DNA from: Desertimonas flava
GTDB taxonomy: Bacteria > Actinomycetota > Acidimicrobiia > Acidimicrobiales > Ilumatobacteraceae
Assembly (NCBI RefSeq): GCF_003426815.1
Contig: NZ_QKYK01000004.1
Location: 1 to 64,000, forward strand
DNA: 64,000 nt
Direction: 5' to 3'
The position numbers and the translations under genes are program-made. The first letter of the stretch is position 1. The number at the start of each line of letters is the position of its first letter. A model generated the notes under the pieces. The model searched no databases, had not been told where the DNA came from, and worked only from the letters and a program-made list of their open reading frames with translations. This document shows, in pieces, positions 3,141 through 32,179 of the stretch.

Positions 3141-5351
3141 GTGCCCCGGCGTCTCACGGTCGCGACGGCGCTGCTGGCGATCGTCCTCGGCCTCGGCGCG
3201 GTCTACGCCTGTTCGGCGCTGGTCGTCCGGCAGCGCATCCTCGCCCCGGCGACCTATACCTCGGCCCTCGCCGACAGCGACGCCACGCGGCGCGTGTACA
3301 CCGATGTCATCCCCGACCCCGAGCTGTCCGGTCTCGTGCAGCGACAGCTCGGCAACCTCGGCGTCGATTCCGCGCTCGTCCCGCAGGCGACGGCGTTGGC
3401 GACCAACATCATGCGCTTCGTGCTGCCCCCGGACCGGATCGACGCCGGCGCCGACATCATCCTCGACTCGGCCATCGCCTACATCCGCGGCGATTCCGAC
3501 GACCTGATCATCGAGATCGATCTCACCGAGGTCGTCGAGCGGTTCGACGAGGCCACGGTGATCTTCGCCCAGTCGCTGCTCGCCTCGGCGATCGAGGACA
3601 CGAGCACAACGGTCTCCGGCTACACGGCGGCGGTCAAGGACTTCGTCGACGAGCTGGTGGCCGGCCGGGTGCCGGACGTCGTCCCAGTGCTCGGCGGCAC
3701 CGAGTTCGATCCCGAGTCCGTGCTCGACGCCATCCTCGACGCGACCGGGGCGGGGGACGACCCCGACCTGCGTGAGCAGATCACGGCCAGCGTGCTCGTG
3801 CACGACGAGCGCAACGCGCTCATCGTCGCCGCCGCGGCGGCGGTGGAAGCCCGCGGCCTCGAGGCCGCCACCGAGCTCCGCAGGGCCAACGGCCAGGCGC
3901 TCGTCGACGTGATCGGCGAGATCGCCGACCGCGCCGGAATGTCGCGCGATCGGGTCACGTCGAGCCTCGACACCGCTCGCTCGGTCGCACGCTTCTTCGC
4001 TCCGGTCCCGGCCATCCTCGCTGCAGTGTTCGCCGTGCTCGCGGCGGTCGGTATCGCCGTCCTGCACCGGGACCGCTGGCGGGTGGCCGCCGCCTGGATC
4101 GCCGGGGCGCTCGGCGTGGCCACCACAGCGTTCCTCGTCCTCTGGCGCCTCGTCGGGTCGGCCCTCGACGCGCCGCTCGAGCGCCTGACCGGTAGCGGGC
4201 CTGGCACGTGGAACCTCCCCGCCGGCACCCGTGGCGTGCTCTCCGACGTCGCCCGCGACATCGGCGACGAGGTCGCCGGCCACGTGCTGTGGATCGCCGC
4301 CGTGCTCGGCGCACTCGCCTTCGCCGTGGCCGCCGTCGCAGCCATCGCGACCTGGAAGCCCCGCGTGCCCGCCGTGCGCGCCGGCGTGGCCGCCACCGCC
4401 GCCGCGCTGATCGTCGCCCTCCCGGTCGCCGGCCTGCGTGCCGAGCCGTCGCTCGCCGACCGGGCGTGCAACGGGGCGGCCGAGCTGTGCGACCGGCCCT
4501 ACGACGAGGTCGCCTACGCGGCCACCCACAACTCGATGTCGAGCCCCCACGTGGTCCCGGTCTGGCCCGAGCACGACAGCCACCTCCGCGCCCAGCTCGA
4601 CGCCGGCGTCCGCGCCCTGCTGATCGACACCAAGTACTGGGAACCCGTCGACGGGGCCGCCGCGCTGACCGGGCAGCTCGACCCCACGTCGCTGCCCATC
4701 CCGCGCTCGGTGGCCGACACGGTGGTCCGCCTCCTCGGCGACGCCATCGACGGGCGGCCCGGCACGTTCCTCTGCCACAACAGTTGCATGTTCGGCGCGC
4801 AGCCACTGGTCGACGGCCTGGCCGACGTCCGCGGGTTCCTCGAGGACAATCCCGACGAGGTGGTCAGCCTGATCATCCAGGACGAGATCAGCGTCGCCGA
4901 CACCGAGACGGCGTTCGAGGACGCCGGCCTGATGTCGTACGTCTACCGGCACGACGACCGCGACTGGCCGACCCTCGGTGAGCTGATCGACAGCGGCGAA
5001 CGTCTCGTGGTGTTCGCCGAGAACGAGGGACCGCCGCCCGACTGGTACGCCAACGCGTTCGAGTCGATGCAGGAGACGCCGTTCCTCGTGCTCGAACGCG
5101 ATGCCTTCACGTGCGACCCCGCACGAGGCGACCCCGACGCCACGCTCTTCCAGCTCAACCACTGGGTGCAGCGGGTGGCGCCCGATCCAGCCGATGCCGC
5201 CGTGGTGAACTCGTACGACTTCCTGCTGGCCCGGGCCCGCGAGTGCCAGGAGGCCCGTGGCCTCTTGCCGAACTTCGTCGCCGTCAACTTCTACAGCATC
5301 GGCGACCTCTTCGCCGTCGTCGACACCCTGAACGGCCTCGACGCTTCGTGA
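3141..5351 (+). CDS. Multi-pass membrane protein with PI-PLC-like catalytic domain
   Basis: A 736-residue protein starting at GTG one base after the LuxR stop, so the two are probably co-transcribed. Residues 5 to 27 form a signal-anchor. A long polar segment to about 280 is followed by four hydrophobic helices (roughly 287 to 425). The C-terminal 300 residues resemble a PI-PLC X / GDPD-like TIM barrel: YAATHNSM near residue 462, LIDTKYW, and FLCHNSCMF near 547 supply the two catalytic-type histidines. The family cleaves phosphodiester headgroups of lipids; the actual substrate is unknown. The topology would place the barrel outside the membrane (inference). Confidence 0.75.
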   Translation: MPRRLTVATALLAIVLGLGAVYACSALVVRQRILAPATYTSALADSDATRRVYTDVIPDPELSGLVQRQLGNLGVDSALVPQATALATNIMRFVLPPDRIDAGADIILDSAIAYIRGDSDDLIIEIDLTEVVERFDEATVIFAQSLLASAIEDTSTTVSGYTAAVKDFVDELVAGRVPDVVPVLGGTEFDPESVLDAILDATGAGDDPDLREQITASVLVHDERNALIVAAAAAVEARGLEAATELRRANGQALVDVIGEIADRAGMSRDRVTSSLDTARSVARFFAPVPAILAAVFAVLAAVGIAVLHRDRWRVAAAWIAGALGVATTAFLVLWRLVGSALDAPLERLTGSGPGTWNLPAGTRGVLSDVARDIGDEVAGHVLWIAAVLGALAFAVAAVAAIATWKPRVPAVRAGVAATAAALIVALPVAGLRAEPSLADRACNGAAELCDRPYDEVAYAATHNSMSSPHVVPVWPEHDSHLRAQLDAGVRALLIDTKYWEPVDGAAALTGQLDPTSLPIPRSVADTVVRLLGDAIDGRPGTFLCHNSCMFGAQPLVDGLADVRGFLEDNPDEVVSLIIQDEISVADTETAFEDAGLMSYVYRHDDRDWPTLGELIDSGERLVVFAENEGPPPDWYANAFESMQETPFLVLERDAFTCDPARGDPDATLFQLNHWVQRVAPDPADAAVVNSYDFLLARARECQEARGLLPNFVAVNFYSIGDLFAVVDTLNGLDAS

Positions 5352-5489
5352 GCGGCGGCCGGCCCCTGCCGCGGTGACCGGTGGGATCCCTCACCCGAAC
5401 AGGGTGTGGTGCCGCGGCAACAGCGCGGCGTACGACTGAGGTGACACCGCTGTCCGCGGTGGCACGTCGCGCCGCGGGAGGCAAATCGG

Positions 5490-7001
5490 ATGTCACGGAC
5501 TGGCTCGCTGATCACACCGTCGTTCGAATGGGTGTCGGATCTGCCGCTCACCGTCACCGACGACGCCGGCGTAGCGGCGACGGCCGTCGGCGTCCCCGTC
5601 GCGTCGAGCGGCCCGGTGCCGGAACGTCTCGGCGTCGGCCGTGACGCCCTCTCCGCCGCCGGGTTCACCGGGGCGGTGGGGACCACGGCAATCATCCCGA
5701 GCGACTCGGGGCCGGTCCTCGTGGCGCTCGGCACCGGCGAGCCGGCGGCGTTCGGCACCGACGCCGCACGTCTCGCTGCCGCCGGATTCGCCCGGGCCAC
5801 CCGGTCGCACGGGTCGCTCGCCCTGGCGGTCGACGACCTGCTCGGCGACGACGCGGCCACCGGGGTGCAGGCCGTGATCGAGGGGCTGTTGCTCGCCCGG
5901 TACTCGTTCGACGTGATGCGCAACGCCCGCCCGTCCACGCCGCTCACGGGCATCGAGCTCGTCACCGGCGGCGACGCCGCGTCGCTCGAAGGCGGCATCG
6001 CACGCGGTCGGGTGTACGCCCGAGCGACGCTGCTGGCCCGGGACCTGGCCAACTGCCCGCACAACTTCCTGAGCGCCTCGGACATGGCCGACGTCGCCGT
6101 CGGTCTCGCCGGCGACCCGCTCACCGTCGAGGTCTTCGACAAAGACGCCCTCGTCGAGATGGGCTGCGGCGGGTTGCTCGGCGTCAACGCCGGCAGCGCC
6201 GAGCCGCCGCGGATGGTCAAGCTGACGTACACGCCTGACGGCGAGCCGACGGGCCATCTCGCCCTGGTCGGCAAGGGCATCATGTACGACTCCGGCGGCA
6301 TCGCCCTCAAGCCTGGCGACACGAGCCACTCCCAGATGAAGAACGACATGTCGGGCGCGGCCGCCGTGCTGGCGTCGATGACCACGCTCGCCGAACTGGG
6401 CTGTCGCGCCAAGGTGACCGGGTACCTGATGTGCACCGACAACATGCCGTCGGGGACGGCCACCGCCCTCGGTGACGTCGTCACCATCCGCGGTGGTACC
6501 ACCGTCGAGGTCGTCAACACCGACGCCGAGGGGCGTCTGGTGATGTCGGACGCGCTCGTGCTCGCCACCGAGGACGGTGCCGACACGATCGTCGACATCG
6601 CCACCCTCACCGGGGCGTGCCTGCGAGCCCTCGGCACCCAGGTCGCCGGTGTGATGGGCAACGATCAGGGCGTCGTCGACCAGTTGCGCTCCGCGGCCGA
6701 AGCGACCGGTGAGTCGCTGTGGCAGCTCCCGCTCGAGCAGCGCTACCGGTCCGAGCTCGACACGCCGGTCGCCGACCTCAAGAACCTCGGCGGAGCGAAT
6801 GCCGGCGCGATCACCGCCGGTCTCTTCCTCGCCGAGTTCGTCGGCGAGACGCCGTGGGCGCACGTCGACATCGCCGGTACGGCCCAGGCGGACGGCGACT
6901 CAGGCGTCAACACCCCCGGCTGCACCGGCTTCGGCGCCCGCCTGCTCGCCCACTTCGCCCTCGACTTCGCACCCGGCGCCGAACGGAGCAACGATGTCTG
7001 A
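5490..7001 (+). CDS. pepA: Leucyl aminopeptidase (M17 family)
   Basis: A 503-residue M17 cytosol aminopeptidase that removes N-terminal residues from peptides using two metal ions. The metal and active-site region is clear: KGIMYDSGGIALKP (about 263 to 276), then NTDAEGRLVMSDAL (about 341 to 354). The N-terminal third is the more variable macro-like domain. A GGGAGG ribosome site lies eight bases before the ATG. The stop overlaps the start of the AbgT-type transporter by eight bases. This coupling suggests that the peptidase processes what the transporter brings in, for example dipeptides or aminoacyl-p-aminobenzoate (inference). Confidence 0.95.
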   Translation: MSRTGSLITPSFEWVSDLPLTVTDDAGVAATAVGVPVASSGPVPERLGVGRDALSAAGFTGAVGTTAIIPSDSGPVLVALGTGEPAAFGTDAARLAAAGFARATRSHGSLALAVDDLLGDDAATGVQAVIEGLLLARYSFDVMRNARPSTPLTGIELVTGGDAASLEGGIARGRVYARATLLARDLANCPHNFLSASDMADVAVGLAGDPLTVEVFDKDALVEMGCGGLLGVNAGSAEPPRMVKLTYTPDGEPTGHLALVGKGIMYDSGGIALKPGDTSHSQMKNDMSGAAAVLASMTTLAELGCRAKVTGYLMCTDNMPSGTATALGDVVTIRGGTTVEVVNTDAEGRLVMSDALVLATEDGADTIVDIATLTGACLRALGTQVAGVMGNDQGVVDQLRSAAEATGESLWQLPLEQRYRSELDTPVADLKNLGGANAGAITAGLFLAEFVGETPWAHVDIAGTAQADGDSGVNTPGCTGFGARLLAHFALDFAPGAERSNDV

Positions 7002-8694
7002 CGACACCCTCGACGAGCCCGCCACCAGCGACGAGACCGTCATCCCCGGCGAACCGAGCGGCGACGGCGCCGCCCCGTCGGGGGGCTTCGTCCAACGCCT
7101 GCTGAACGGCATCGAGACCGTCGGCAACAAGGTGCCCCACCCGGCGATCATCTTCCTCGGGCTCTGCGGCCTCGTCGTGCTCTTGTCGGTGATCCTGTCG
7201 GCGTTCGACGTGGGGGTGACCTACGACGTGATCGAACCGCCACCCATCGTCGTCGAGGAGCAGTACCAGACGGGATCGGTGGTGCCCGAGATCGCCCCGC
7301 AACTCGACGACTACCTCGGCGAGGACCTCGAGGTCCACCAGGAGACGACGTCGATCCGCAGCCTGCTCGGCGGCGACGGCATCCGCTTCATCTTCTCGTC
7401 GTTCGTCAACAACTTCGCCAACTTCAGCGTCGTCGCCGTGATCTTCGTGGCGATGATCGGCGTCGGGGTCGCCGAGGAGGCGGGCCTGATGGCGGCGCTG
7501 ATCCGCAAGCTCGTCAAGGTCTCACCGCCGAACATGCTGTGCTTCATCATCGTGTTCGTCGGCGGCCTGTCGAACATCGCCACCGACGCCGGCTACCTGA
7601 TCCTGATCCCCCTCGGCGCGGCCGCCTTCCTCAGCGTCGGGCGGCATCCGCTGGCCGGACTCGCCGCCGCCTACGCCGGCGTCAGTGCCGGCTTCGCCGT
7701 CAACGTGCTGATCACCCCGCTCGACGGCCTGTTGACCGAGGTGACCAACGAAGCGATCCACATCGCCGACCCCACCAAGTCGATCGACCTCACGGCCAAC
7801 CTGTGGTTCTCGATCGTGTCGACGTTCTTCGTGGCCATCGTCGTGACGCTGGTGGCCCAGTGGATCACCGAGCGCACGCTCGGGACGTATGTCCCTGACA
7901 CCGACGTCGAGGTGGTCGCCGAAGAGGGCCCGCCAGGCGAGGCCCGCGGGCTGCGGTTCGCCACGTTCGGCATGCTCGGCGTGCTGGCCGTGATCGTGCT
8001 GCTCACCGTGCTGCCCGATGCCCCGCTGCGCAACCCCGAGACGGGGGCGATCTTCAACGACTCGCCACTGATGGACAGCCTGATCTTCATCATCACGCTG
8101 ATCTTCCTGGCCGCCGGCATCTGCTACGGCGTCGGGGCCAAGACGATCACCGGGAGCGTCGACGTGATCAACGCCATCGTCAAAACGTTCGCCGGTCTCA
8201 GCGGACTGATCTTCCTGCTGTTGTTGATCAGCCAGTTCATCGCCTGGTTCAACTTCTCCAACCTGCCGACGGTGATCGCCGTGAAGATGGCCGACGTGCT
8301 CGAGAGCGCCGACATCGGACCGCTGTGGCTGCTCATCGGCTTCATCGTCGTGATCATGATCCTCGACCTGATCATCCCCGGGTCGTTGCCCAAGTGGGCC
8401 ATCTTCGCCCCGATCTTCGTGCCCCTGTTCCTGCGGCTCGACGTGGCGCCGCAGACCGTGCTCGCCGCCTACCGGCTGGGTGACTCGCCGGTGAACGTGA
8501 TCACGCCGCTCATGGTGTACCTGCCCTTCATCGTGCTGGTCGCCCAGCGCTACAAGAAGGACGTCGGGATCGGCACGATCATCTCGCTGATGATTCCCTA
8601 CACGATCATCGTCACCCTCACGTGGGGGGCGCTGTTCGTCATCTGGTACCTGATCGGCATCCCGCTCGGCCCCGGCTACCCCGTCCATCTCTGA
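6994..8694 (+). CDS. AbgT-family transporter
   Basis: A 566-residue polytopic protein of the AbgT family. Members import p-aminobenzoyl-glutamate or export sulfonamides. Family features are the start of TM1 (VPHPAIIFLGLCGLVVL), the inserted loop after it, SNIATDAGYLILIPLGAAAF, and the C-terminal SPVNVITPLMVYLPFIV. The open frame runs further upstream, but the correct start is the ATG at 6994, eight bases inside pepA and preceded by GGAG. About 35 acidic residues precede the first helix. With pepA it forms a plausible two-gene salvage unit for folate fragments or peptides. Confidence 0.92.
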   Translation: MSDDTLDEPATSDETVIPGEPSGDGAAPSGGFVQRLLNGIETVGNKVPHPAIIFLGLCGLVVLLSVILSAFDVGVTYDVIEPPPIVVEEQYQTGSVVPEIAPQLDDYLGEDLEVHQETTSIRSLLGGDGIRFIFSSFVNNFANFSVVAVIFVAMIGVGVAEEAGLMAALIRKLVKVSPPNMLCFIIVFVGGLSNIATDAGYLILIPLGAAAFLSVGRHPLAGLAAAYAGVSAGFAVNVLITPLDGLLTEVTNEAIHIADPTKSIDLTANLWFSIVSTFFVAIVVTLVAQWITERTLGTYVPDTDVEVVAEEGPPGEARGLRFATFGMLGVLAVIVLLTVLPDAPLRNPETGAIFNDSPLMDSLIFIITLIFLAAGICYGVGAKTITGSVDVINAIVKTFAGLSGLIFLLLLISQFIAWFNFSNLPTVIAVKMADVLESADIGPLWLLIGFIVVIMILDLIIPGSLPKWAIFAPIFVPLFLRLDVAPQTVLAAYRLGDSPVNVITPLMVYLPFIVLVAQRYKKDVGIGTIISLMIPYTIIVTLTWGALFVIWYLIGIPLGPGYPVHL

Positions 8695-8739: not shown

Positions 8740-10326
8740 ATGTCGGACATGACGATCAGCTTCTGCGTGCTCGCAGGAGTCGTCGTCCTGTTCGTCTCCA
8801 ACCTGATCCCGGTCGAACTGGTCGCCATCGGCGCCGCCCTGACGCTGTACGCCACGGACGTGCTCACGCTGGACGAGACGATCGGCGGGTTCGGCGACTC
8901 GTCCGTCGTGTTCATCGCAACGCTGTTCGTGGTCAGCGAGGGACTCGACGCCACCGGGGTGACGGCGTGGGCCGGCCAGCAGATGATGAACCGCGTCGGC
9001 GACAGCCGCACCCGGCTGATGGTCGTGATGATGCTGCTCGTCGCCGTGCTGACGGCCCTGATCAGCGTCAACGGGGCGGTTGCCGCACTGCTGCCGATGG
9101 TCGCCGTGCTGGCAGTCCGGCTCGGACGGGCGCCGTCGCAGCTCCTCATGCCGCTCGCCTTCGCCGCCCACGCCGGCTCGATGCTGGCACTCACCGGCAC
9201 GCCTGTGAGCGTCATCGTGTCGGAGGCGCTCGAGAACGCCGGGGCGGACGGTTTCGAGTACTTCGAGTTCGCCCTCGTGGGCGTCCCGCTCCTCGTCTGC
9301 ACGATCGCCGTCGTCGTCCTCTTCGGCGAGCGGCTGCTGCCGACCCGGACCCCGAAGTCGATCCCGCCCGACCTGAGCGAGCACGCCCGCCTCCTCGTGC
9401 AGCACTACACGATCGACGACCGTGTCATCGAAGATCACCTTCCCCCCACGCTGATCACCCGCGACTACGGCATCGCCGAAGTCGTCATCGCCCCGCGCTC
9501 CGCCGCCATCGGATCGCCGGTGTTCCCGGGCATGGTCACCGATGACGGCGACTTGGTCGTGCTCGCCATCGAACGCAAGGGCGAGGCGCTCCAGGCCAAG
9601 GAGGCGACACTCGCCGCCGGCGACACCTTGTTGCTGCAGGGCCGCTGGACGGCGCTCGACGCCCGCATCGAGACGGACCCCGAACTCCTCGCCGTCGACG
9701 CGCCGGCGGCGATCCGACGCCAGGCGATCCCGCTCGGCGTCGGAGCGAAGCGGGCGATCGTCATCCTCGTGGCGATGGTCGTCGCCCTGGCGACCGGCAT
9801 GATCCCTCCGGTCGTCGTGGGTCTGCTCGCCGCCGGCGCCCTCGTACTGTTCCGGGTCCTCTCCGTCGAGCAGGCCTACCGGAGCATCTCGTGGACCACG
9901 GTCGTACTCGTCGGCGCGATGATCTCGATGTCGGTGGCCATGCGGAACAGCGGCGCCGCCGAACGTGTCGCCGAGGAGCTGATCGGCGCCGTCGGTGACT
10001 CCAGCCCGTACGTGCTGGCGAGCGGGCTGTTCCTCATCACTGCGGTGCTCGGCCAGCTGATCAGCAACATGGCCACCGCTCTGATCGTGATACCGATCGC
10101 TCTTTCCGCGGCTGCCGAGACCGATGTGTCGGCCCGTCCGCTGCTGATGACCGTCAACGTCGCCGCCGCGGCGGCACTGCTCACGCCGGTCGCCACGCCG
10201 GTGAACCTGATGGTGATGGGTCCCGGCGGCTATCGCTTCGGCGACTACTGGAAGCTCGGGCTCCCGCTCCTCGTGGTGTTCTACGTCATCGCCGTCTTCC
10301 TCGTGCCCGTCTTCTGGCCCTACTGA
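8740..10326 (+). CDS. SLC13-family permease with central TrkA-C-like segment
   Basis: A 528-residue ion-transporter-superfamily permease. Two hydrophobic halves flank a soluble insertion (about 203 to 305) that resembles TrkA-C (RCK_C) repeats, ending DTLLLQGRW. Motifs such as LTGTPVSVIV (first half) and TPVATPVNLMVMGPGGYRFG (second half) match the DASS/SLC13 substrate-binding loops. Relatives carry dicarboxylates, sulfate or other anions; the substrate here cannot be read. It follows the AbgT gene by 45 bases on the same strand with AGAGGA upstream, so it may belong to the same transcript. Confidence 0.9.
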   Translation: MSDMTISFCVLAGVVVLFVSNLIPVELVAIGAALTLYATDVLTLDETIGGFGDSSVVFIATLFVVSEGLDATGVTAWAGQQMMNRVGDSRTRLMVVMMLLVAVLTALISVNGAVAALLPMVAVLAVRLGRAPSQLLMPLAFAAHAGSMLALTGTPVSVIVSEALENAGADGFEYFEFALVGVPLLVCTIAVVVLFGERLLPTRTPKSIPPDLSEHARLLVQHYTIDDRVIEDHLPPTLITRDYGIAEVVIAPRSAAIGSPVFPGMVTDDGDLVVLAIERKGEALQAKEATLAAGDTLLLQGRWTALDARIETDPELLAVDAPAAIRRQAIPLGVGAKRAIVILVAMVVALATGMIPPVVVGLLAAGALVLFRVLSVEQAYRSISWTTVVLVGAMISMSVAMRNSGAAERVAEELIGAVGDSSPYVLASGLFLITAVLGQLISNMATALIVIPIALSAAAETDVSARPLLMTVNVAAAAALLTPVATPVNLMVMGPGGYRFGDYWKLGLPLLVVFYVIAVFLVPVFWPY

Positions 10327-25423: not shown

Positions 25424-25544
25424 AAGTGCCGAGTGCCCCGGGACTGTCGCGGTCGGGGAAAAAGGCCTCGTGACCCTTTCGTGGGAGCAGAACGGTAAGA
25501 GTGCCGACAGGACGGGCTTGTCGAAGCCCGCTGGGTCGGCACTT
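25424..25544. repeat. Nested inverted repeats upstream of the DyP-encapsulin operon
   Basis: A nine-base arm AGTGCCGAC (25500 to 25508) pairs perfectly with GTCGGCACT (25535 to 25543). Inside it CGGGCTT (25513 to 25519), loop GTCG, and AAGCCCG (25524 to 25530) form a second perfect stem. A further copy, AAGTGCCGA at 25424 to 25432, could pair with the same right arm at 25536 to 25544, so two left arms compete for one partner. There is no T-tract, so it is a poor intrinsic terminator. It lies upstream of the likely DyP promoter. It could be an operator, a 3'-end structure or a REP-like palindrome. Confidence 0.6.
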
Positions 25545-25593
25545 CCTCCACAGCCACGCTTCCTCGCCACCTCCGCACGAGCGAGCCCGGCCG

Positions 25594-25599
25594 TATACG
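25594..25599 (+). promoter_or_regulatory. Candidate -10 element of the DyP-encapsulin operon
   Basis: TATACG stands out in this GC-rich stretch, ten bases before the ATG of the DyP gene. Transcription starting about seven bases downstream would give a leaderless or nearly leaderless mRNA, which agrees with the absence of a ribosome site there. No -35 consensus is clear. This is inference from spacing and composition only. Confidence 0.35.
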
Positions 25600-25608
25600 T
25601 TGTCGGCG

Positions 25609-26706
25609 ATGACTCCGCCGACCCCTTCCGCGGCCATCGCGAGCGTGCAGAATCCGCAGGCCGTGCTGACCCCGCTGACGGCATCGGCCATCTTCCTCGT
25701 CGCCACGATCGCGGCGGGACGGGAGGACGACGTCCGCGCCGTGCTCGCCGACCTGAGCGGACTGCAGCGCACGGTCGCCTTCCGCGAGCAGAACGAGGGC
25801 CTCGCGCTCGTCACCGGGATCGGATCGGACGCATGGGACCGCCTCTTCAGTGGGCCCCGGCCCGCCGAATTGCACCCGTTCGTCGAGCTGCGGGGCGACC
25901 GCCACCACGCCGCGTCCACCCCGGGCGACCTGCTGTTCCACATCCGGGCCGAGCGCGCCGACCTCTGCTTCGAGCTCGCCACGCTGATCACCGATGCCCT
26001 CGGCGACGCGATCACCGTCGTCGACGAGGTCCACGGATTCAAGTACTTCGACGCCCGCGACCTGCTCGGCTTCGTCGACGGGACGGAGAATCCCGAGGGG
26101 GCCGCTGCTGAGGCTGCCGTCAGCATCGGTGACGAGGACCCCGACTTCGCCGGGTCGAGCTACGTCATCGTGCAGAAGTACCTCCACGACATGACGGCGT
26201 GGAACTCCATCAGCGTCGAGGAGCAAGAGCGCGTCATCGGCCGCCGGAAGCTGTCCAACGTCGAGCTGTCCGACGACGTCAAACCGGCCAATTCCCACGT
26301 GGCGCTCAACGTGATCACCGACGACGACGGCACGCAACGGCAGATCCTGCGCGAGAACATGCCGTTCGGCTCGGTCGGGGCGAAGGAGTTCGGCACCTAC
26401 TTCATCGGCTACGCGTCGACGCCGAGCGTCATCGAACGGATGCTGCGGAACATGTTCCTCGGCGACCCGCCCGGCAACACCGACCGCATCTTGGACTTCT
26501 CCACGGCGATCACCGGCTCCCTCTTCTTCGTCCCGTGCGCCGACTTCCTCGACGACCCGCCCGGGCCCCCGGCGCCGGCCGCCGCGCCCGAGCCCGCCGC
26601 CTCCACCCGCAGCGGCGGTGACGGGTCGCTCGGCATCGGCAGCCTCCGCCCCACCACCGCGTCCACCACGAGCTCGACCAGCACCGTCAAGGAGAACCCT
26701 TCGTGA
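25609..26706 (+). CDS. DyP-type peroxidase with encapsulin cargo-loading peptide
   Basis: A 365-residue dye-decolourising heme peroxidase. The family GxxDG motif is GFVDGTENP. The proximal heme His is in ANSHVALNV, and the distal-side Arg is in QILRENMPFG. After the catalytic domain a Pro/Ala-rich linker leads to DGSLGIGSLR, the consensus cargo-loading peptide for family 1 encapsulins, followed by a Ser/Thr-rich tail of 18 residues. The gene directly precedes the encapsulin shell gene with a four-base overlap. The enzyme is therefore expected to be packed inside the shell and to act in oxidative-stress or peroxide chemistry. Confidence 0.96.
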   Translation: MTPPTPSAAIASVQNPQAVLTPLTASAIFLVATIAAGREDDVRAVLADLSGLQRTVAFREQNEGLALVTGIGSDAWDRLFSGPRPAELHPFVELRGDRHHAASTPGDLLFHIRAERADLCFELATLITDALGDAITVVDEVHGFKYFDARDLLGFVDGTENPEGAAAEAAVSIGDEDPDFAGSSYVIVQKYLHDMTAWNSISVEEQERVIGRRKLSNVELSDDVKPANSHVALNVITDDDGTQRQILRENMPFGSVGAKEFGTYFIGYASTPSVIERMLRNMFLGDPPGNTDRILDFSTAITGSLFFVPCADFLDDPPGPPAPAAAPEPAASTRSGGDGSLGIGSLRPTTASTTSSTSTVKENPS

Positions 26707-27506
26707 ACAACCTGCACCGCAGCCTCGCCCCGATCTCTGACGTGGCGTGGGACCAGATCGAAGACGAGGCCCGCCGCACGTTCACGCGCAACCTCGCCGG
26801 CCGGCGCGTGGTCGACGTCGAGGGACCGTCAGGCGACACCCTCTCGGCCGTCGGCACGGGCCACCTCCGTGCGCTCGCCGAGACGTCCGACGGCGTGATC
26901 GCCCACGCGCACGAGGTCCAGCAGGTCGTGCGTCTGCGGGCGCCCTTCACCGTCACACGCGAAGCCGTCGACGCCGTGGAGCGGGGCGCCCAGGACTCCG
27001 ACTGGCAGCCCGTCAAGGACGCTGCGCGCCAGATCGCCTTCGCCGAGGACCGGATGATCTTCAACGGATCCCCGGCGGCGGGCATCGAGGGACTGATCCC
27101 CTCCAGCTCGAACGCGCCGGTGGCCCTGCCGGGGAACGCCGCCGACGTACCCGACGCCGTCGCCAAGGCCATCAGCGAGCTGCGTTTGGCGGGCGTCGAC
27201 GGCCCATACAGCCTGTTGCTGTCGGCCGACGCCTACACGGCGATCGCCGAAGCGACGGCGCACGGCTACCCGATCCTCAACCACGTCTCCCGCCTCCTCG
27301 GTGACGGCGAGACGGTGTGGGCCCCGGCCCTCGAGGGGGCCCTGCTCGTGTCCCGCCGCGGCGGCGACTATCAGCTGCACCTCGGTCAGGACCTCTCGAT
27401 CGGCTACCTGTCGCACGACGCCGAGACGATCCAGCTCTACCTCCAGGAGTCGCTGACGTTCCTCGCCTTCACGGCCGAAGCGAGCGTTCCCCTGCCCACC
27501 GCCTGA
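26703..27506 (+). CDS. Encapsulin shell protein (family 1)
   Basis: A 267-residue HK97-fold nanocompartment protein, the usual length for T=1 encapsulins. It begins NNLHRSLAPISDVAWDQIED with ARRTFTRNLAGRRVVDVEGP, the conserved N-terminal helix that binds cargo peptides. Later blocks include EDRMIFNG, GIEGLIP and the E-loop region LRAPFTVTREAVD. GTG start inside the DyP stop, with AAGGAG ten bases upstream. It assembles a protein shell that holds the DyP peroxidase. The 3' end overlaps the convergent ATP-grasp gene by 70 bases. Confidence 0.96.
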   Translation: MNNLHRSLAPISDVAWDQIEDEARRTFTRNLAGRRVVDVEGPSGDTLSAVGTGHLRALAETSDGVIAHAHEVQQVVRLRAPFTVTREAVDAVERGAQDSDWQPVKDAARQIAFAEDRMIFNGSPAAGIEGLIPSSSNAPVALPGNAADVPDAVAKAISELRLAGVDGPYSLLLSADAYTAIAEATAHGYPILNHVSRLLGDGETVWAPALEGALLVSRRGGDYQLHLGQDLSIGYLSHDAETIQLYLQESLTFLAFTAEASVPLPTA

Positions 27507-28441
27507 TCGGCAGCACGGGACTCGGCGCCCATCAGATGGCGCGCCACCGCCCGGGCGATCGGCTGACCGGTGTGGGCCTCGTAGTAGCTGTAGGCCGGGC
27601 TGGGATTGACCTCGAAGCAGAACGTGTCGCCATCGGGCGTGAACCGGAGATCGATCCCGGCGAACGCCAGGCCCAGGTCGGCGGCGAGCCGGCGGCAGCG
27701 CCCGGCCAGGTCGTCGCCGATGTCGTACGCCCGGAGAAGGGCGTCGTGACCGCGTTGTGACGCGTACCGGTAGTCGGTGTCCGGGGAGTCGATGCGCGTG
27801 GCGAACACCTCGTCACCGATCGTGTGGACGCGCACGTCGAACCCGGCGACGTGCTCCTGGAACTGGACGGGGCACGCCCCGAGGGCGTCGGCGCGCTCCA
27901 GGTCGTCGGCCGTCACGTCGGTCACGATCGACCGCACACCACTGATCGACTTGTACACCACCCGTCCGTGACGCGAGCAGAAGTCGCGAACCTGCGCCGC
28001 GTCGTTGCAGATCAGCGTGGCGGGCACGCGGAAGCCGTGGCGGGCGATCAGCTGTGCCTGGTAGGGCTTGGACCCGTTCGATCCCATGACCCGGACGCGG
28101 TTGACGACGCGCGCGTCGGCGACGTCCATCCACGCCACCAGCTGGTCGTGCAGCCGGCGACATCGGCGGCGGCGTGGCGAGTCGGCCGGATCGTCGTCGA
28201 GCTCGGGCAACAGGCGATCGTCCATCAGCCGGGCGTAGACGCCGGTGAACGCCTCCAGCTCGTAGCGGTGTCCGGAGACGCAGAGCCAGCCGGTGATCCG
28301 ACCGCCGGCGACCGCCCAGACGAGCCGCGACGTCTCGAACTGCCGCTGGTTGAACACCACGGTGGGGGCGCCGAGGTCCTCCAGCTGATCGACGACGCGA
28401 GCCACCGGCGGCTCGGTCGGGATGCCACAGACGAGGATCAC
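27437..28441 (-). CDS. RimK/MvdD-like ATP-grasp ligase
   Basis: A 334-residue ATP-grasp protein. It has a Rossmann-like N-terminal domain (VILVCGIPTEPPVARVVDQL), central VYKSISG as the ATP-binding Lys strand, and a C-terminal metal-binding FEVNPSPAYSYYE. The pattern resembles RimK and the MvdC/MvdD RiPP maturases, which couple a carboxylate to an amine using ATP. It starts at GTG inside the stop of the 28438 gene (GTGA) and is the last gene of a three-gene operon. About 35 extra C-terminal residues lie in the overlap with the encapsulin gene. Substrate is unknown; the upstream protease-fold protein is the obvious candidate (inference). Confidence 0.82.
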   Translation of the reverse strand: MILVCGIPTEPPVARVVDQLEDLGAPTVVFNQRQFETSRLVWAVAGGRITGWLCVSGHRYELEAFTGVYARLMDDRLLPELDDDPADSPRRRRCRRLHDQLVAWMDVADARVVNRVRVMGSNGSKPYQAQLIARHGFRVPATLICNDAAQVRDFCSRHGRVVYKSISGVRSIVTDVTADDLERADALGACPVQFQEHVAGFDVRVHTIGDEVFATRIDSPDTDYRYASQRGHDALLRAYDIGDDLAGRCRRLAADLGLAFAGIDLRFTPDGDTFCFEVNPSPAYSYYEAHTGQPIARAVARHLMGAESRAADQAVGRGTLASAVKARNVSDSWR

Positions 28442-29187
28442 GACCCCGCCCGCCTCGCGCCCAACGTGTCGGCCAGGGCGGCGACGGTCTCGTCGCCCCC
28501 CGCGCGCAGATCGGGCAACGGCGTGACACCGTCCACGGCGTGGGTCCCGTCGGCGAACGCCACGCCGAGCAGCGGGCAGCCCGACAGCCGCGCCAACCGG
28601 CGGAAGGCGGCGACCTCCTCGGGGTCGAGGTCGTCACGGCAGAACACGGCGTCGCCGACGACGATCACGTCCTCGAGCAATGGGGCGTGGGGGCCGGCGG
28701 GCAGCCATCCACCGTCCCTTGTCACGTGGTCGGCATCGGAATCGACGTACACCGGCGCGCACGGCACGCCGGCCTCGGCGGCGAGTGACGCCCACTCCGC
28801 CGGCGAACGCCACGCACCACCGAGTCCCCTGGGGTCGGGAGGGTTCACGACGGCACCGGGGAGCGACGCCAGCCAGCTCATCACCAGGGCGGACATCTCC
28901 TGGAGGCCGTACAGGCGGTCGTCCGAGACGAGCGGCTCCACGATGGCCGGAGACAGGAAGCTGAGACGGTTGAGCGTCCCCCGGAGCTCGGCGCTGTCGA
29001 TCGTGCGGCCGTCGACGAGCTCGAGGAGCGTCGTGACGCCATCGTCGTCGATGCGATGGGTCCACCGGGCGCCGACGAGGTCGACGTCCACCACGACCTG
29101 CAACGGCTCGAGCCCGAGGCCGACGAGACCCGCCGCGGCCCACCGGGCCGCCTCGTCGGCCTCGGGCGCGATCACCAACCACGCCAT
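28438..29187 (-). CDS. Unrecognised protein resembling a partial ATP-grasp (pre-ATP-grasp) domain
   Basis: A 249-residue soluble protein. It starts MAWLVIAPEADEAARWAAAG and continues LRGTLNRLSFLSPAIVEPL, then GLQEMSALVMSWLASLPGAV, then VNPPDPRGLGGAWRSPAEW and LAAEAGVPCAPV. The order (Rossmann-like start, an Arg strand, a conserved NPP before an AEAGVP helix) is like the front half of an ATP-grasp enzyme, but I see no ATP-binding Lys strand or metal-binding acidic motif. It lies eight bases after the protease-fold gene and overlaps the full ATP-grasp gene by four, so the three are co-translated. It may be a partner or docking subunit (inference). Confidence 0.75.
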   Translation of the reverse strand: MAWLVIAPEADEAARWAAAGLVGLGLEPLQVVVDVDLVGARWTHRIDDDGVTTLLELVDGRTIDSAELRGTLNRLSFLSPAIVEPLVSDDRLYGLQEMSALVMSWLASLPGAVVNPPDPRGLGGAWRSPAEWASLAAEAGVPCAPVYVDSDADHVTRDGGWLPAGPHAPLLEDVIVVGDAVFCRDDLDPEEVAAFRRLARLSGCPLLGVAFADGTHAVDGVTPLPDLRAGGDETVAALADTLGARRAGS

Positions 29188-29195
29188 GGGCGCCG

Positions 29196-31112
29196 TCAGC
29201 CCGGGGCGCGATACATCGGGCGCCGGCCGCGGTTGCGGTCGGCCTCGCGGCCGAGGGGGCCACGACCGAGGTCGGGCCGCAGCGTTCGCGGGATGAAGTG
29301 CTCCGAGCCCGACTTGGCCGCCCGGTCGTCGCAGCCGCACCCGCCGCCACCGCCGCAGCCGCACTCGACGTCGGTGCAGCAACACAGCCCGAGCAGGATC
29401 GTCTCGTCCTGGGGGCAGACGATGCGCACGTAGGCGATGTCGGTCCCCTCGATCGTGAGCGTCTGCTCCACCATCTGCGTCGGTGTCATCGTCGCGGTGC
29501 CGGCGAGCGTGCCGTCGCTGTTGTAGGCCTCCATCGTGGCCGGCTGGGAGAAGTGCACGAGGGTCGCCTGCACGGTGGGACATCCGCGATCGAGCTTGAT
29601 GTCGGTGGTCCAACCGGCGTTGAGGCCGGTGAACGGACCCCAGTTGACGATCTCGGTCGCCGGCAGCGAGGCGCCGTTGTAGTCCGACACGTGCACGGAG
29701 AAGGGCGGCGCCACCACCGGGTTGGCCCCCGGGCCCGGCATCAACGCCGTGAACTCCACGCACGGAGGGCGCCGGCGACGGCGGGCCCCAGCGCGCGCCG
29801 CGGCGGCACCGGCCCGCGTCCCGATCGGTCCCCGGGTGACGGGCGGCTGCCCGCCGAACACCGGCGGCTGTCCACCCCCGGCCACGGGTGGCTGCCCGCC
29901 GAACACCGGCGGTCCACCGCGCTCCCACGGATTGCGTTCCCACGGGTCGTAGCCCTCGAACTGGCCGAACTTCTCGTACGCCCACTCCTTCCACTCCTTG
30001 ATGTACTCCTTCAGCCGCTCCTTGACCTCGAACTCCTTGGTCTCGAGCTTCTCGATCTTGAAGTGCTTCTCGTCGAGGAACTCCTTGACGATCTCCTTCT
30101 CCCACTTCTTGATGCCCGTGCAGATCGACACGTCGAGGGCGGACAGCACGGCGGCGATCTGGTTGGCCACGCCGACGGTGCCCGACGAGTTGCCGGCGAA
30201 GTAGAGGCCGACGACGTTGTTCGACGCGTCGACGACGACCGAGCCCGAGTCGCCCTTCTTGCCGAAGAAGGCGCTCTGTGCGGAGTCGTTGACGATGCGG
30301 ATCTGGTCGGTGAAGGTGACCACGCCCAGGCCGTCGCCGTAGTCGACGTTCGTCGTGTAGTCCACGGCGGTGACGGTTCCGTGGGTGAGCTCGGTGGTCC
30401 GCCCTCGCTTCCGGACGGCCATCGAGTTGGTCGCCACGGCGGTCCCGTTGACGTCGCCGATCTCGAGGATCTCGCAGACGTGGGGACGGCCGGCGATCGA
30501 CGAGACGGCCGCGTCGACGCTGGACGTGAGCTGGGCCCGGACCAACGCGCCCACCTGGTCGCCGGGGCAGCTCCCGCCATCCACCCTGCTCGGTTGCGCC
30601 ATCGTGTTGCCGACCGCCCACGAGTCGTCGACGCACATCACGTGGAAGTTGCTGAGCATCATCGGATCGTTCGTCGCGTTGTCGCGGACGATGCACCCGA
30701 GCGTCCCGACGAACACGTAGTTGCCCGCCTCAGGCACATCGGGTGGCTCGAGGTGGATCGAGCGGCACGGGCCGATGCTCATCCCTCCCTCCAGCGTGGC
30801 GTACGTGGTGGCGTCGACGAGGGGGGCGATGTCTTCGAGTCGGATCGCGCCCATCAGCTGCATCGGCTCGATGACCTCTTCGATGACGTCGGTCGGGATG
30901 CCGTTGATATCGGCCGGGATCCGCTGCTTGGCCGGTACGTCCTTCTTCTCGCTGACGGTCACGACGATCGCGATCGTCCCCGTGTCGACGCCATCGGTGA
31001 CCTTCGTGCCGGTGAAGACACCGGTGACGTTGGCCAGACCGAGCAGGTCCTGCTCGTTCTCCGCCTTGACCCGGCTGACTTCCTGGCGGCGCCGGTTCTG
31101 GTCCTCTGCCAT
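29196..31112 (-). CDS. Trypsin-like protease-fold protein with coiled linker and Cys-rich C-terminal domain
   Basis: A 638-residue protein without a signal peptide. Residues 1 to about 85 hold the prodomain-like pattern ANVTGVFTGTKVTDGVDTG to IPADINGIPTDVIEE. Residues 100 to 330 are a chymotrypsin-fold domain with a triad in order: NFHVM (His), SSVDAAVSS (Asp) and KKGDSGSVVVD (Ser). Then come a Lys/Glu-rich helix of about 60 residues, a Gly/Pro linker with repeated QPPVFGG/QPPVAGG units, a run of Arg, and a beta-rich domain of 130 residues ending LLGLCCCTDVECGC and a Gly/Cys stretch. The start at 31112 is supported by GGGAGGGAG upstream. The operon with two ATP-grasp-like genes suggests it is modified or acts as partner (inference). 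Confidence 0.8.
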   Translation of the reverse strand: MAEDQNRRRQEVSRVKAENEQDLLGLANVTGVFTGTKVTDGVDTGTIAIVVTVSEKKDVPAKQRIPADINGIPTDVIEEVIEPMQLMGAIRLEDIAPLVDATTYATLEGGMSIGPCRSIHLEPPDVPEAGNYVFVGTLGCIVRDNATNDPMMLSNFHVMCVDDSWAVGNTMAQPSRVDGGSCPGDQVGALVRAQLTSSVDAAVSSIAGRPHVCEILEIGDVNGTAVATNSMAVRKRGRTTELTHGTVTAVDYTTNVDYGDGLGVVTFTDQIRIVNDSAQSAFFGKKGDSGSVVVDASNNVVGLYFAGNSSGTVGVANQIAAVLSALDVSICTGIKKWEKEIVKEFLDEKHFKIEKLETKEFEVKERLKEYIKEWKEWAYEKFGQFEGYDPWERNPWERGGPPVFGGQPPVAGGGQPPVFGGQPPVTRGPIGTRAGAAAARAGARRRRRPPCVEFTALMPGPGANPVVAPPFSVHVSDYNGASLPATEIVNWGPFTGLNAGWTTDIKLDRGCPTVQATLVHFSQPATMEAYNSDGTLAGTATMTPTQMVEQTLTIEGTDIAYVRIVCPQDETILLGLCCCTDVECGCGGGGGCGCDDRAAKSGSEHFIPRTLRPDLGRGPLGREADRNRGRRPMYRAPG

Positions 31113-31157
31113 GTGGGGCTCCCTCCCTCTCGAAGACGCCATCGTCCCCGGGTCGCG

Positions 31158-31412
31158 TCACCGGTGCGTCACGGCTCCTGGGTCACCGAGCGTCGCCAGC
31201 CACCGCTCGACGACGTCCAGGGCGGCCGCGGCACCGACGACGTTGACGGTCCGGCGCCGGCGCCGAGCGACGTCGGGTTGGAACTCGACCCGGATGCGGG
31301 CCGTCGCCGGATCGCCGGATCGATCGTCGGACCGCTCGAACGTGACGCTGAGGCAGCACACGGCAACGAGCGGCTCGCCGCCCCCCGCCGCAGGTGCATC
31401 GGCCGCGTTCAC
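31158..31412 (-). CDS. Hypothetical 84-residue protein
   Basis: A small frame starting at GTG, reading VAVCCLSVTFERSDD, then ARIRVEFQPDVARRRRR and VVERWLATLGDPG. It sits 45 bases upstream of the protease-fold gene on the same strand and may be part of that operon. The beta-rich first half and helical end look protein-like, but there is no ribosome site and no known family. It could also be a chance frame in GC-rich DNA. Confidence 0.45.
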   Translation of the reverse strand: MNAADAPAAGGGEPLVAVCCLSVTFERSDDRSGDPATARIRVEFQPDVARRRRRTVNVVGAAAALDVVERWLATLGDPGAVTHR

Positions 31413-31438: not shown

Positions 31439-32179
31439 TCACCGTGGCGTCAAGCACCCCTCCATCAACCGCTGCAGCTCGGCACCAGGCGCCAGACCCA
31501 GTTCGGTCTCGATCAACCGCGAGTAGCGCCGATACTGGCGGATCGCCGTGGCGTGATCGCCACCGGCCAGGCTCGCCCGGACCAGCAGGGCGTTCGAGGA
31601 CTCGCGCAGCGGGTCGCACTCGACGGCCGCCAGGGCGGCCATCACGGCGAGGTGGTGATCGCCCCGTTGCAGGGCGCCGGCGGCGAGGCGTCCGTAGAGG
31701 AGGACCAGTTCGGCGCGCACCCGCTCGCGCTCGAACACAAGCCACGAGTCCCAGCATCCTGGGAGCAGTTCGCCGCGGATGGTCTCGACCATCAGCGGGT
31801 CGGGCTCCTCACCGCTGTGGCGCAGGCGGCGGGCGGCGAGCTCGACCGAACGGACGTCGACGCCGACGTGGTCGTGCACGCCGAGGTGACCATGGACGAT
31901 CTCGACCACGTCGTGTCCGGCGACGTGGAGCCGCCACAGCGCCGTTCGCAGGTTGGCCGCAGCCCGCTCGTCGGTGGTGTCGGGCCACAACGTCTCGGCG
32001 ACGTACGAGCGCAAGAGGCGTCTGTCGTGCAGGGCGAGGAACGCGATCACCCGCTGGCTCGACGGAGCGACGTCGATCGTCTCGCCGCCGCGGCGCAGGT
32101 CGAAGCCTCCGAGCAATCGGACTTCGTACGCATCAGAGCACCGCGCCTGCGCCGCGCTCTGGACCGACAACGTCGCCAT
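31439..32179 (-). CDS. SARP/BTAD-family transcriptional regulator
   Basis: A 246-residue regulator. The N-terminal winged helix (EVRLLGGFDLRRGGE, LARDR-type FLALHDRRLLRSYVAETLWP, then ANLRTALWRL) is the OmpR-like DNA-binding domain of SARPs. The C-terminal half is the bacterial transcriptional activation domain (BTAD), with CDPLRESSNALLVRASLAGG and YRRYSRLIETELGLAPG. It lacks the NB-ARC and TPR regions of long SARPs. It follows the decarboxylase gene by 71 bases on the same strand; its targets are unknown. Confidence 0.9.
   Translation of the reverse strand: MATLSVQSAAQARCSDAYEVRLLGGFDLRRGGETIDVAPSSQRVIAFLALHDRRLLRSYVAETLWPDTTDERAAANLRTALWRLHVAGHDVVEIVHGHLGVHDHVGVDVRSVELAARRLRHSGEEPDPLMVETIRGELLPGCWDSWLVFERERVRAELVLLYGRLAAGALQRGDHHLAVMAALAAVECDPLRESSNALLVRASLAGGDHATAIRQYRRYSRLIETELGLAPGAELQRLMEGCLTPR

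Follow-up and report, generated by a model that had tools for sequence, protein, structure and literature searches.

A C-terminal tag on full-size proteins may recruit a pair of live and dead graspetide-synthetase homologues in Desertimonas flava and in other bacteria and archaea

Introduction

Among the graspetide synthetases, CorB makes corallotide by joining Lys to Asp within the KxxxD motifs of a large precursor, some members of the group need a partner protein, and the Arg of their DxR motif has been called critical (PMC13097080); the same paper mentions a group with diverse neighboring proteases, which may or may not equal the loci described here. Another graspetide synthetase, ThfB, can crosslink whole proteins (PMC12291112), and a C-terminal leader can be engineered for it (PMC13003496). 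A further described arrangement is branch 8 of the ATP-grasp ligases, in which a truncated, inactive ATP-grasp protein accompanies peptidases drawn from several families that are unrelated to one another (Makarova et al., 2022, PMC8939145). In that survey, no precursor was predictable for branch 8, candidates were limited to 150 residues, and the peptidases were suggested to cut other proteins. Here we analyze a locus of three adjacent genes, A, B, and C, in a window of 64,000 nucleotides (nt; the whole stretch of DNA analyzed, contig NZ_QKYK01000004.1) of Desertimonas flava, and its relatives elsewhere. Sequence comparison indicates that the product of gene A, and of the equivalent gene at related loci, is very probably the substrate of the ATP-grasp pair encoded by B and C.

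By published description, these loci match branch 8: a graspetide-related ATP-grasp ligase adjoins a truncated, inactive ATP-grasp protein and varied, unrelated peptidases. The sequence-only reading of this DNA knew of no described system with this layout, but the layout is already in print (PMC8939145). Unlike branch 8 as described there, the neighboring protein here bears a C-terminal tag and a repeat and is the proposed substrate, and some partners are not peptidases or have no recognizable head domain at all; what is new is that the neighboring "peptidase" is itself a likely substrate, as judged from its sequence.

The loci resemble graspetide systems (PsnB 7drm, MdnB/MdnC, CdnC, PruB, CorB) in that gene C is homologous to their synthetases, with the DxR motif present as GIDLR in the window. 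As in corallotide, where Lys-to-Asp isopeptides at i,i+4 are known (PMC13097080), the candidate precursor is large and repetitive. It combines a conserved leader-like motif with a core holding donor and acceptor residues, like graspetide precursors but unlike their usual short form. The loci depart from known graspetide systems in several respects: their substrates are full-size proteins, many of them with a folded head; the leader-like motif sits naturally at the C-terminus; the partner protein is itself a degenerate synthetase; and Lys replaces the motif Arg in 24 of the 62 C relatives. The ThfB studies likewise show a C-terminal leader to be tolerated and whole-protein crosslinking to be possible, but both of those cases are engineered (PMC13003496; PMC12291112), whereas here the C-terminal leader seems natural. 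Searches of open-licence literature on ATP-grasp and graspetide, peptidase, pseudoenzyme, and C-terminal-leader themes did not return this substrate among the matches listed.

Results

A Paired ATP-Grasp Ligase and Degenerate Homologue

Coordinates are positions in the window, and all three genes lie on the minus strand:

29196..31112, minus strand: gene A, 638 amino acids (aa), ATG start; NAL1-like S1 protease head, charged segment, beta domain, and C-terminal tag; proposed substrate
28438..29187, minus strand: gene B, 249 aa; degenerate, shortened graspetide-synthetase homologue, putative pseudoenzyme partner
27437..28441, minus strand: gene C, 334 aa, GTG start; active-looking graspetide-synthetase-like ATP-grasp ligase with the GIDLR motif and EVNPSP

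From its sequence, C is an intact-looking ATP-grasp ligase related to graspetide synthetases. The NCBIfam model TIGR04187 matches it at 2.4e-40; since its scores against TIGR04187 (138.7 bits, cut-off 350), MvdC (85.6 bits, cut-off 425), and MvdD (82.5 bits, cut-off 475) all lie under the cut-offs, C is not filed as a member of these families. The RimK equivalog model PRK10446 is likewise not reached (25.6 bits, cut-off 331), and the Pfam RimK model is (32.4 bits, cut-off 21). Compared with the PDB, a 62-row profile of C relatives matches PsnB (7drm) best, at 6e-44, with CdnC, MdnC, MdnB, AMdnB, and PruB also ranking above RimK, which follows far lower at 4e-12. Residues K125, K164, G262, D264, L265, E277, N279, and P280 are invariant in all 62 rows, and the Lys, Glu, and Asn residues among them presumably have the roles usual in ATP-grasp enzymes. 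The DxR motif is DLR in the window; across the 62 rows its Asp is invariant and the third residue is Arg in 36, Lys in 24, and Leu or Met in one each.

No Pfam or NCBIfam family matches B at E <= 0.1. In profile comparison B aligns to C along its whole length (99.4%), with the Lys-containing ATP-grasp segment absent and EVNP replaced, and its predicted structure (predicted local distance difference test, pLDDT, 90.9) is nearest to AMdnB, MdnC, MdnB, CdnC, PruB, and PsnB (VIA Z 19.4 to 16.2), followed by RimK (14.7). Because of this alignment, these structural matches, and the lost segment and EVNP, B is very probably a dead, shortened graspetide-synthetase homologue.

A search of GTDB genomes with C as query returned 98 relatives, and we kept the 80 best (loci L009-L088). 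C relatives are rare and patchy over bacterial phyla and archaea, occurring in Acidobacteria, Gemmatimonadetes, Proteobacteria, Bacteroidetes, Actinobacteria, Planctomycetes, Chloroflexi, Nitrospira, Myxococcus, Synechococcus, and archaea. With the window's own genome set aside, three of 396 genomes of its phylum hold one at E <= 1e-40, a distant ATP-grasp in one case, and further genome sets gave 2/297, 0/378, and 1/296 at E <= 1e-60; these frequencies are lower bounds, with at most 5 to 7 first-look candidates scored per genome. B relatives occur in two other genomes among 198 of the order.

A B-like frame besides C's own was found in 74 of the 80 loci with a three-row profile and in 76 with a 60-row profile that includes many of the loci's own rows. 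By a strict frame test, which overlooks L038, L041, and L070 where C's open frame extends beyond its start, this frame immediately precedes C in 71 and 73 loci, respectively. Neither profile found one at L044 and L065, which are at contig edges, nor at L082 and L086. The protein in B's place at L086 scores with the C profile (74 bits) and is perhaps an intermediate form. The upstream frame and C overlap by 4 nt in 58 of 78 pairs, exact overlaps having been preferred when frames and starts were chosen. Because a B-like frame goes with C in 74-76 of the 80 loci, the pairing exceeds chance at the level of sequence. Clustering of ORFs (open reading frames), in which the A and B class labels are rough owing to overlapping frames in GC-rich DNA, gave no other family common to more than six of the loci.

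Several proposals of the sequence-only reading fared well against these data. The coordinates confirm three tightly packed minus-strand genes, with 8 bases between A and B and a 4-base overlap (GTGA) between B and C, and the likening of B to half an ATP-grasp enzyme agrees with its profile and structural matches. The proposed extension of the unit to 31412 did not hold, as A starts near 31112 (alternative starts 31142 or 31157) and 31158-31412 is a separate 84-aa ORF.

A Conserved C-Terminal Tag

In the first two relatives, L005 and L006, the proteins in A's place are unrelated to it, being by eye an M6-like metalloprotease and a tyrosinase-like protein, and yet these two and A end alike despite their unrelated heads. 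The shared element, F-I-x4-R-P-[D/E/P and others]-L, lies near the C-terminus of one protein in 72 of the 80 loci (70 detected by pattern, L021 by profile, and L082 found later). Of 71 tags found by profile, 70 are upstream of C and one is downstream (L057); at L021 the tag sits 127 residues before the frame end. Shuffling the last 130 residues of the frames left 8 pattern matches vs. 74 in the real sequences. The tag profile comprises 36 rows, mostly from the 80 loci, and is independent only for the window and unused rows; with the window's row removed it still recovers A at 1.4e-6, and no untagged frame scores below E 0.1 among the 11,970 frames of the 80 loci and the window.

For composition we used 73 tagged proteins (alignment A3) from 72 loci, namely 70 of the 80 together with the window and L006, leaving out L021 and L082. 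Immediately ahead of F-I, 28 of them have Pro and 20 have His, and 44 have Leu immediately ahead of R-P. The form P-F-I-x3-L brings to mind the microviridin leader PFFARFL, as quoted in PMC8939145. A search of open-licence literature for tag strings, including LRPDL, gave only unrelated papers among the matches.

At E <= 0.001 no tag came up away from the clusters in the genomes searched, and we rejected the idea of substrates encoded in trans. In the D. flava genome A scores 1e-9, its own row being in the profile, and the next matches are weak (0.35-0.81), so that there is no second tag at that threshold. Across 22 named genomes, five of which had only 150 first-look candidates scored, 21 tags at E <= 0.001 were found in 20 genomes, all inside known clusters by coordinates and none away from a cluster, while the genomes of L043 and L057 gave none at this threshold. 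There is one tag per genome, except in Pseudonocardia with two tandem tagged genes; at L040 (Pseudonocardia endophytica, 3913-5282) two tagged repeat proteins stand in tandem before the ATP-grasp pair.

By eye, a coiled-coil-like stretch lies ahead of many tags. Also by eye, M6 and some trypsin partners have a second, loosely conserved element 15-25 residues past the tag (AK-x3-D, e.g., DAKRAFDT), which could belong to the recognition site or be a further place of crosslinking.

A Lys/Glu/Asp Repeat Upstream of the Tag

Each of the 73 tagged proteins has a segment of 30 or more residues rich in Lys, Glu, and Asp (median length 86); it invariably precedes the tag, and the median distance between the two is 30 residues. 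Segments of at least 60 aa occur in 62 of the 73 vs. none of 478 neighboring ORFs, and segments of at least 30 aa in 73/73 vs. 14/478, the length threshold having been chosen after the data were seen and the control ORFs possibly including spurious frames. Under a stricter criterion, at least 15 Lys+Glu per 40 residues, 63 of the 73 retain the segment. The pattern is mainly K-E-x, and K is followed by E/D at i+4 in 705 cases vs. 397 expected. Ser and Thr together make up 5.8% of the repeat segment vs. 14.4% of the preceding sequence, and because of this depletion lactams are favored over esters.

Interchangeable Heads and a Natural Control

The tag and repeat are attached to very different heads, classed from BLAST clusters, family counts, and ten single scans: 29 of the 73 are M6 peptidases, 10 trypsin/NAL1, 6 a DUF6519 cluster, 5 subtilases, and 1 each M64, tyrosinase (the archaeal L083), and kelch, with 8 unassigned. 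Six members match DUF6519, and the cluster is taken as this family; in the Variovorax loci L047, L049, L052, L053, and L061 the tagged partner is a large protein of the cluster. The tyrosinase label of the L006 partner (P0007) was given by eye, L083 being the one tyrosinase member found by the Pfam scan. The remaining 12 proteins have fewer than 60 residues ahead of the repeat; L029, L062, and L068 start at a contig end, leaving nine that are uncut. For head-less genes, inspection by eye of the two longest upstream frames shown at 13 loci suggested no peptidase nearby.

A quick tree of C places the M6 loci together in a single group (Shimodaira-Hasegawa-like approximate likelihood ratio test, SH-aLRT, 95). 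The eight head classes, in which some repeat-only labels and the L006 tyrosinase label were assigned by inspection, need 11 changes on this tree (minimum 7, shuffled mean 29.1); heads have therefore been replaced while the tag, repeat, and enzyme pair persist.

Homologues of the head of A provide a natural control. Among 396 genomes of the phylum we found 18 of them, spread over 17 genomes including that of the window, with at most 5 candidates scored per genome. The two that lie beside B (the window and L123) have both tag and repeat. The other 16, among them L122 with 49% identity to the A head, have no tag, no repeat after the head, and no B in the approximately 1.5-kb flanks fetched; three of the 16 carry a charged stretch of 30-40 aa within the head. 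A is like rice NARROW LEAF 1 (NAL1) in the predicted fold and intact triad of its head, and unlike the NAL1-like head homologues without B nearby in carrying a repeat and a tag.

Five close C loci surfaced after the tag profile was built, and four of them have B, tag, and repeat: L145, L146, and L147 (tags at E 8.7e-14, 2.1e-4, and 8.9e-13; charged segments of 98, 45, and 170 residues) and L098 (tag 2.4e-14, charged segment 69). A sixth locus, L099, is a distant ATP-grasp with neither B nor a tagged partner.

Gene A of the Window

Within A, the head is followed by the Lys/Glu-rich segment, the beta domain, and the Cys/Gly-rich stretch, and then by HFIPRTLRPDLGRGPL near the end:

30123..31112, minus strand: protease head, residues 1-330 (alignment; Foldseek)
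29934..30146, minus strand: Lys/Glu-rich segment, residues 323-393; proposed crosslinking region
29379..29765, minus strand: extra C-terminal beta domain, approximately residues 450-578 (alignment; model of low-to-moderate confidence)
29331..29384, minus strand: Cys/Gly-rich stretch, CCCTDVECGCGGGGGCGC (alignment)
29238..29300, minus strand: C-terminal tag, HFIPRTLRPDLGRGPLGREAD; proposed leader or recognition signal for B/C

By alignment and structure prediction the head is an NAL1-like S1 serine protease with a complete triad: His157, Asp200, and Ser289 are invariant in 11 of 11 aligned rows, and the best Foldseek matches are to rice NAL1 (E 7.3e-17, predicted structure). Its Pfam Trypsin_2 score, 22.2 bits, is under the cut-off of 27.6. 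Beyond the head the AlphaFold model is poor (mean pLDDT 64.5 for A). Among ten aligned relatives the beta domain occurs only in L019, which has a Lys/Glu repeat where A has its Cys/Gly-rich stretch. Features stressed by the sequence-only reading are indeed there, including GDSGS, the charged helix, and CCCTDVECGC; the QPPVFGG repeats are so in part, the exact copy occurring once and the shorter PPVFGG twice and QPPV three times in the same stretch. Neither QPPVFGG nor the Cys cluster is conserved in the ten aligned relatives, whereas HFIPRTLRPDL near the very end of A, on which that reading did not remark, is conserved among relatives. A signal peptide or membrane anchor on A-type proteins was rejected: a crude hydropathy scan, with frames taken stop to stop and N-termini uncertain, was positive in 10 of 73, all internal except L084.

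Surroundings of the Locus

The 84-aa ORF (31158-31412, minus strand) lies directly upstream of A, and a BTAD (AfsR/SARP-like) regulator gene (31439-32179) follows further upstream on the same strand. The ORF matches no family, and the 80 related loci contain no match to either gene at E <= 0.001; a separate short precursor at the locus was rejected accordingly, and either gene could be a local regulator. On the other side (25501-27506, plus strand), a DyP-type peroxidase gene and the gene of a family-1 encapsulin shell overlap by 4 bases. The peroxidase carries GSLGIGSLR close to its end, which we take to resemble an encapsulin targeting peptide. The encapsulin gene and C are convergent, their 3' ends overlapping by 70 bases; neither encapsulin nor peroxidase recurs in the 80 related loci, and we regard their adjacency to the three genes as chance.

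A role in defense was rejected, A, B, C, and two other partners having no PADLOC match at E <= 0.01, as was carriage by mobile elements, B relatives being absent from viral contigs and plasmids at E <= 0.001. Plasmids held no C relative at E <= 1e-30. One partial C relative (E <= 1e-10; 36% over 54%) is found at 9193-9771 of the phage record MT835913.1, named Bacteriophage sp. and from human feces.

Discussion

We propose that B and C work as a pair, in which C would be the catalyst, while B, a shortened paralogue without catalytic activity, would probably bind to C, to the substrate, or to both. The substrate would be the product of the neighboring gene A, its tag F-I-x4-R-P-D-L acting as a natural C-terminal leader that recruits B/C. 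C would then use ATP to activate Glu/Asp side chains and couple them to the amines of Lys, and the resulting isopeptide (lactam) crosslinks, most likely between K(i) and E/D(i+4), would staple the Lys-Glu/Asp repeat that lies between the folded head and the tag. The enzymatic head, whether protease, oxidase, or other, would be interchangeable cargo. Sequence comparison establishes the homology, the pairing, the tag, the repeat, the swapping of heads, and the fact that head homologues with no B nearby lack both tag and repeat. We infer that the tag is bound, that B and C form a complex, that the crosslinks are lactams, and what purpose they serve, the chemistry because of the family of C and the make-up of the repeat. 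For the combined reading, that A carries a C-terminal leader recruiting B/C, which staples its repeat by lactams with B non-catalytic, we estimate a probability of roughly 0.57, a figure lowered slightly since 24 of 62 relatives have Lys in place of the DxR Arg. The broader claim, that a natural, portable C-terminal tag directs a live/dead graspetide-synthetase heterodimer to install Lys-Glu/Asp isopeptide arrays in the repeat arms of full-size proteins across bacteria and archaea, appears to us to have slightly better than even odds. As to what stapling is for, our guess is a stiff, protease-resistant arm that holds or clusters an enzyme.

Several observations weigh against the proposal. C scores far under the TIGR04187 cut-off, and the DxR Arg, though called critical, is often replaced. 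The excess of K to E/D is also present at i+1, i+5, and i+8, and because a three-residue KEx periodicity gives these as well, the i+4 spacing alone is no proof of lactams. Rows from many of the 80 loci went into the tag profile, which means that hits at these loci are not independent, and the correlation between tag similarity and C similarity (r = 0.61) is equally expected under simple co-inheritance. Among the eight tag-less loci, L044, L055, L056, and L065 have C near a contig end and at L085 a Lys/Glu-rich partner frame is cut by the contig end, but L058 and L088 have neither tag nor long repeat partner, and at L086 a Lys/Asp-repeat protein (KDHKDQKEHKD; 5102-7510) without the FI..RP tag lies downstream of the ATP-grasp gene. 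The fifth fresh locus, L097 (G412), has C and a B remnant with the tagged partner not present. In the window itself the charged segment of A is short and approximately 210 residues from the tag, compared with a median of 30 elsewhere, and because of this A may be an atypical member of the tagged proteins.

The same substrate and tag might serve a different chemistry, with B/C adding amino acids or a small molecule to repeat side chains or to the C-terminus in the manner of RimK. C lies above the Pfam RimK cut-off (32.4 vs. 21 bits), RimK-type ligases are the next structural neighbors, Lys for Arg in 24 of 62 DxR motifs could be read this way, and Glu-rich substrates suit side-chain addition. 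However, C is far closer to graspetide synthetases (PsnB 6e-44 vs. RimK 4e-12; TIGR04187 138.7 vs. PRK10446 25.6 bits), and a repeat of Lys and Glu/Asp with depleted Ser/Thr offers both lactam partners, and we consider RimK-like addition rather unlikely. It is less likely still that the tag is a docking site only, with B/C modifying something else or assembling a complex without modification of A. Such a role would suit the coiled-coil-like stretch seen by eye before many tags and partners that are often folded enzymes, but where the partner consists of repeat and tag without a recognizable head little else conserved is left to act, no other ORF family is common to more than six loci, and repeat and tag are both absent from head homologues without B nearby.

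A further explanation follows the hypothesis stated in PMC8939145, in which B/C act on peptides that the peptidase has cut out of other proteins of the cell. The partners most often have peptidase heads (29 M6, 10 trypsin/NAL1, 5 subtilase, and 1 M64 of 73), yet nine uncut partners have fewer than 60 residues before the repeat, others are tyrosinase, kelch, and DUF6519 proteins, and the tag and repeat are borne by the neighbor itself; we regard this explanation as very improbable. The same partners without a recognizable peptidase domain disfavor the suggestion of the sequence-only reading that the large protein is a processing protease, while its other suggestion, a self-contained module with the large protein as substrate, is well supported by the way tag and repeat travel on that protein with the ATP-grasp pair.

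Recruitment of B/C by the tag, with stapling of the repeat by lactams, offers a testable answer to the published question of what peptidase-linked, precursor-less ATP-grasp ligases modify, as posed in PMC8939145. A short tag able to direct lactam formation to a protein of choice would have practical value as a tool as well, as engineered leaders already hint (PMC13003496). If the proposal is true, each pair's substrate can be predicted from sequence alone, by its tag, and graspetide chemistry reaches beyond short peptides to folded enzymes by way of a natural C-terminal leader. The chemistry of ribosomally synthesized and post-translationally modified peptides would then build armored arms on enzymes instead of small molecules.

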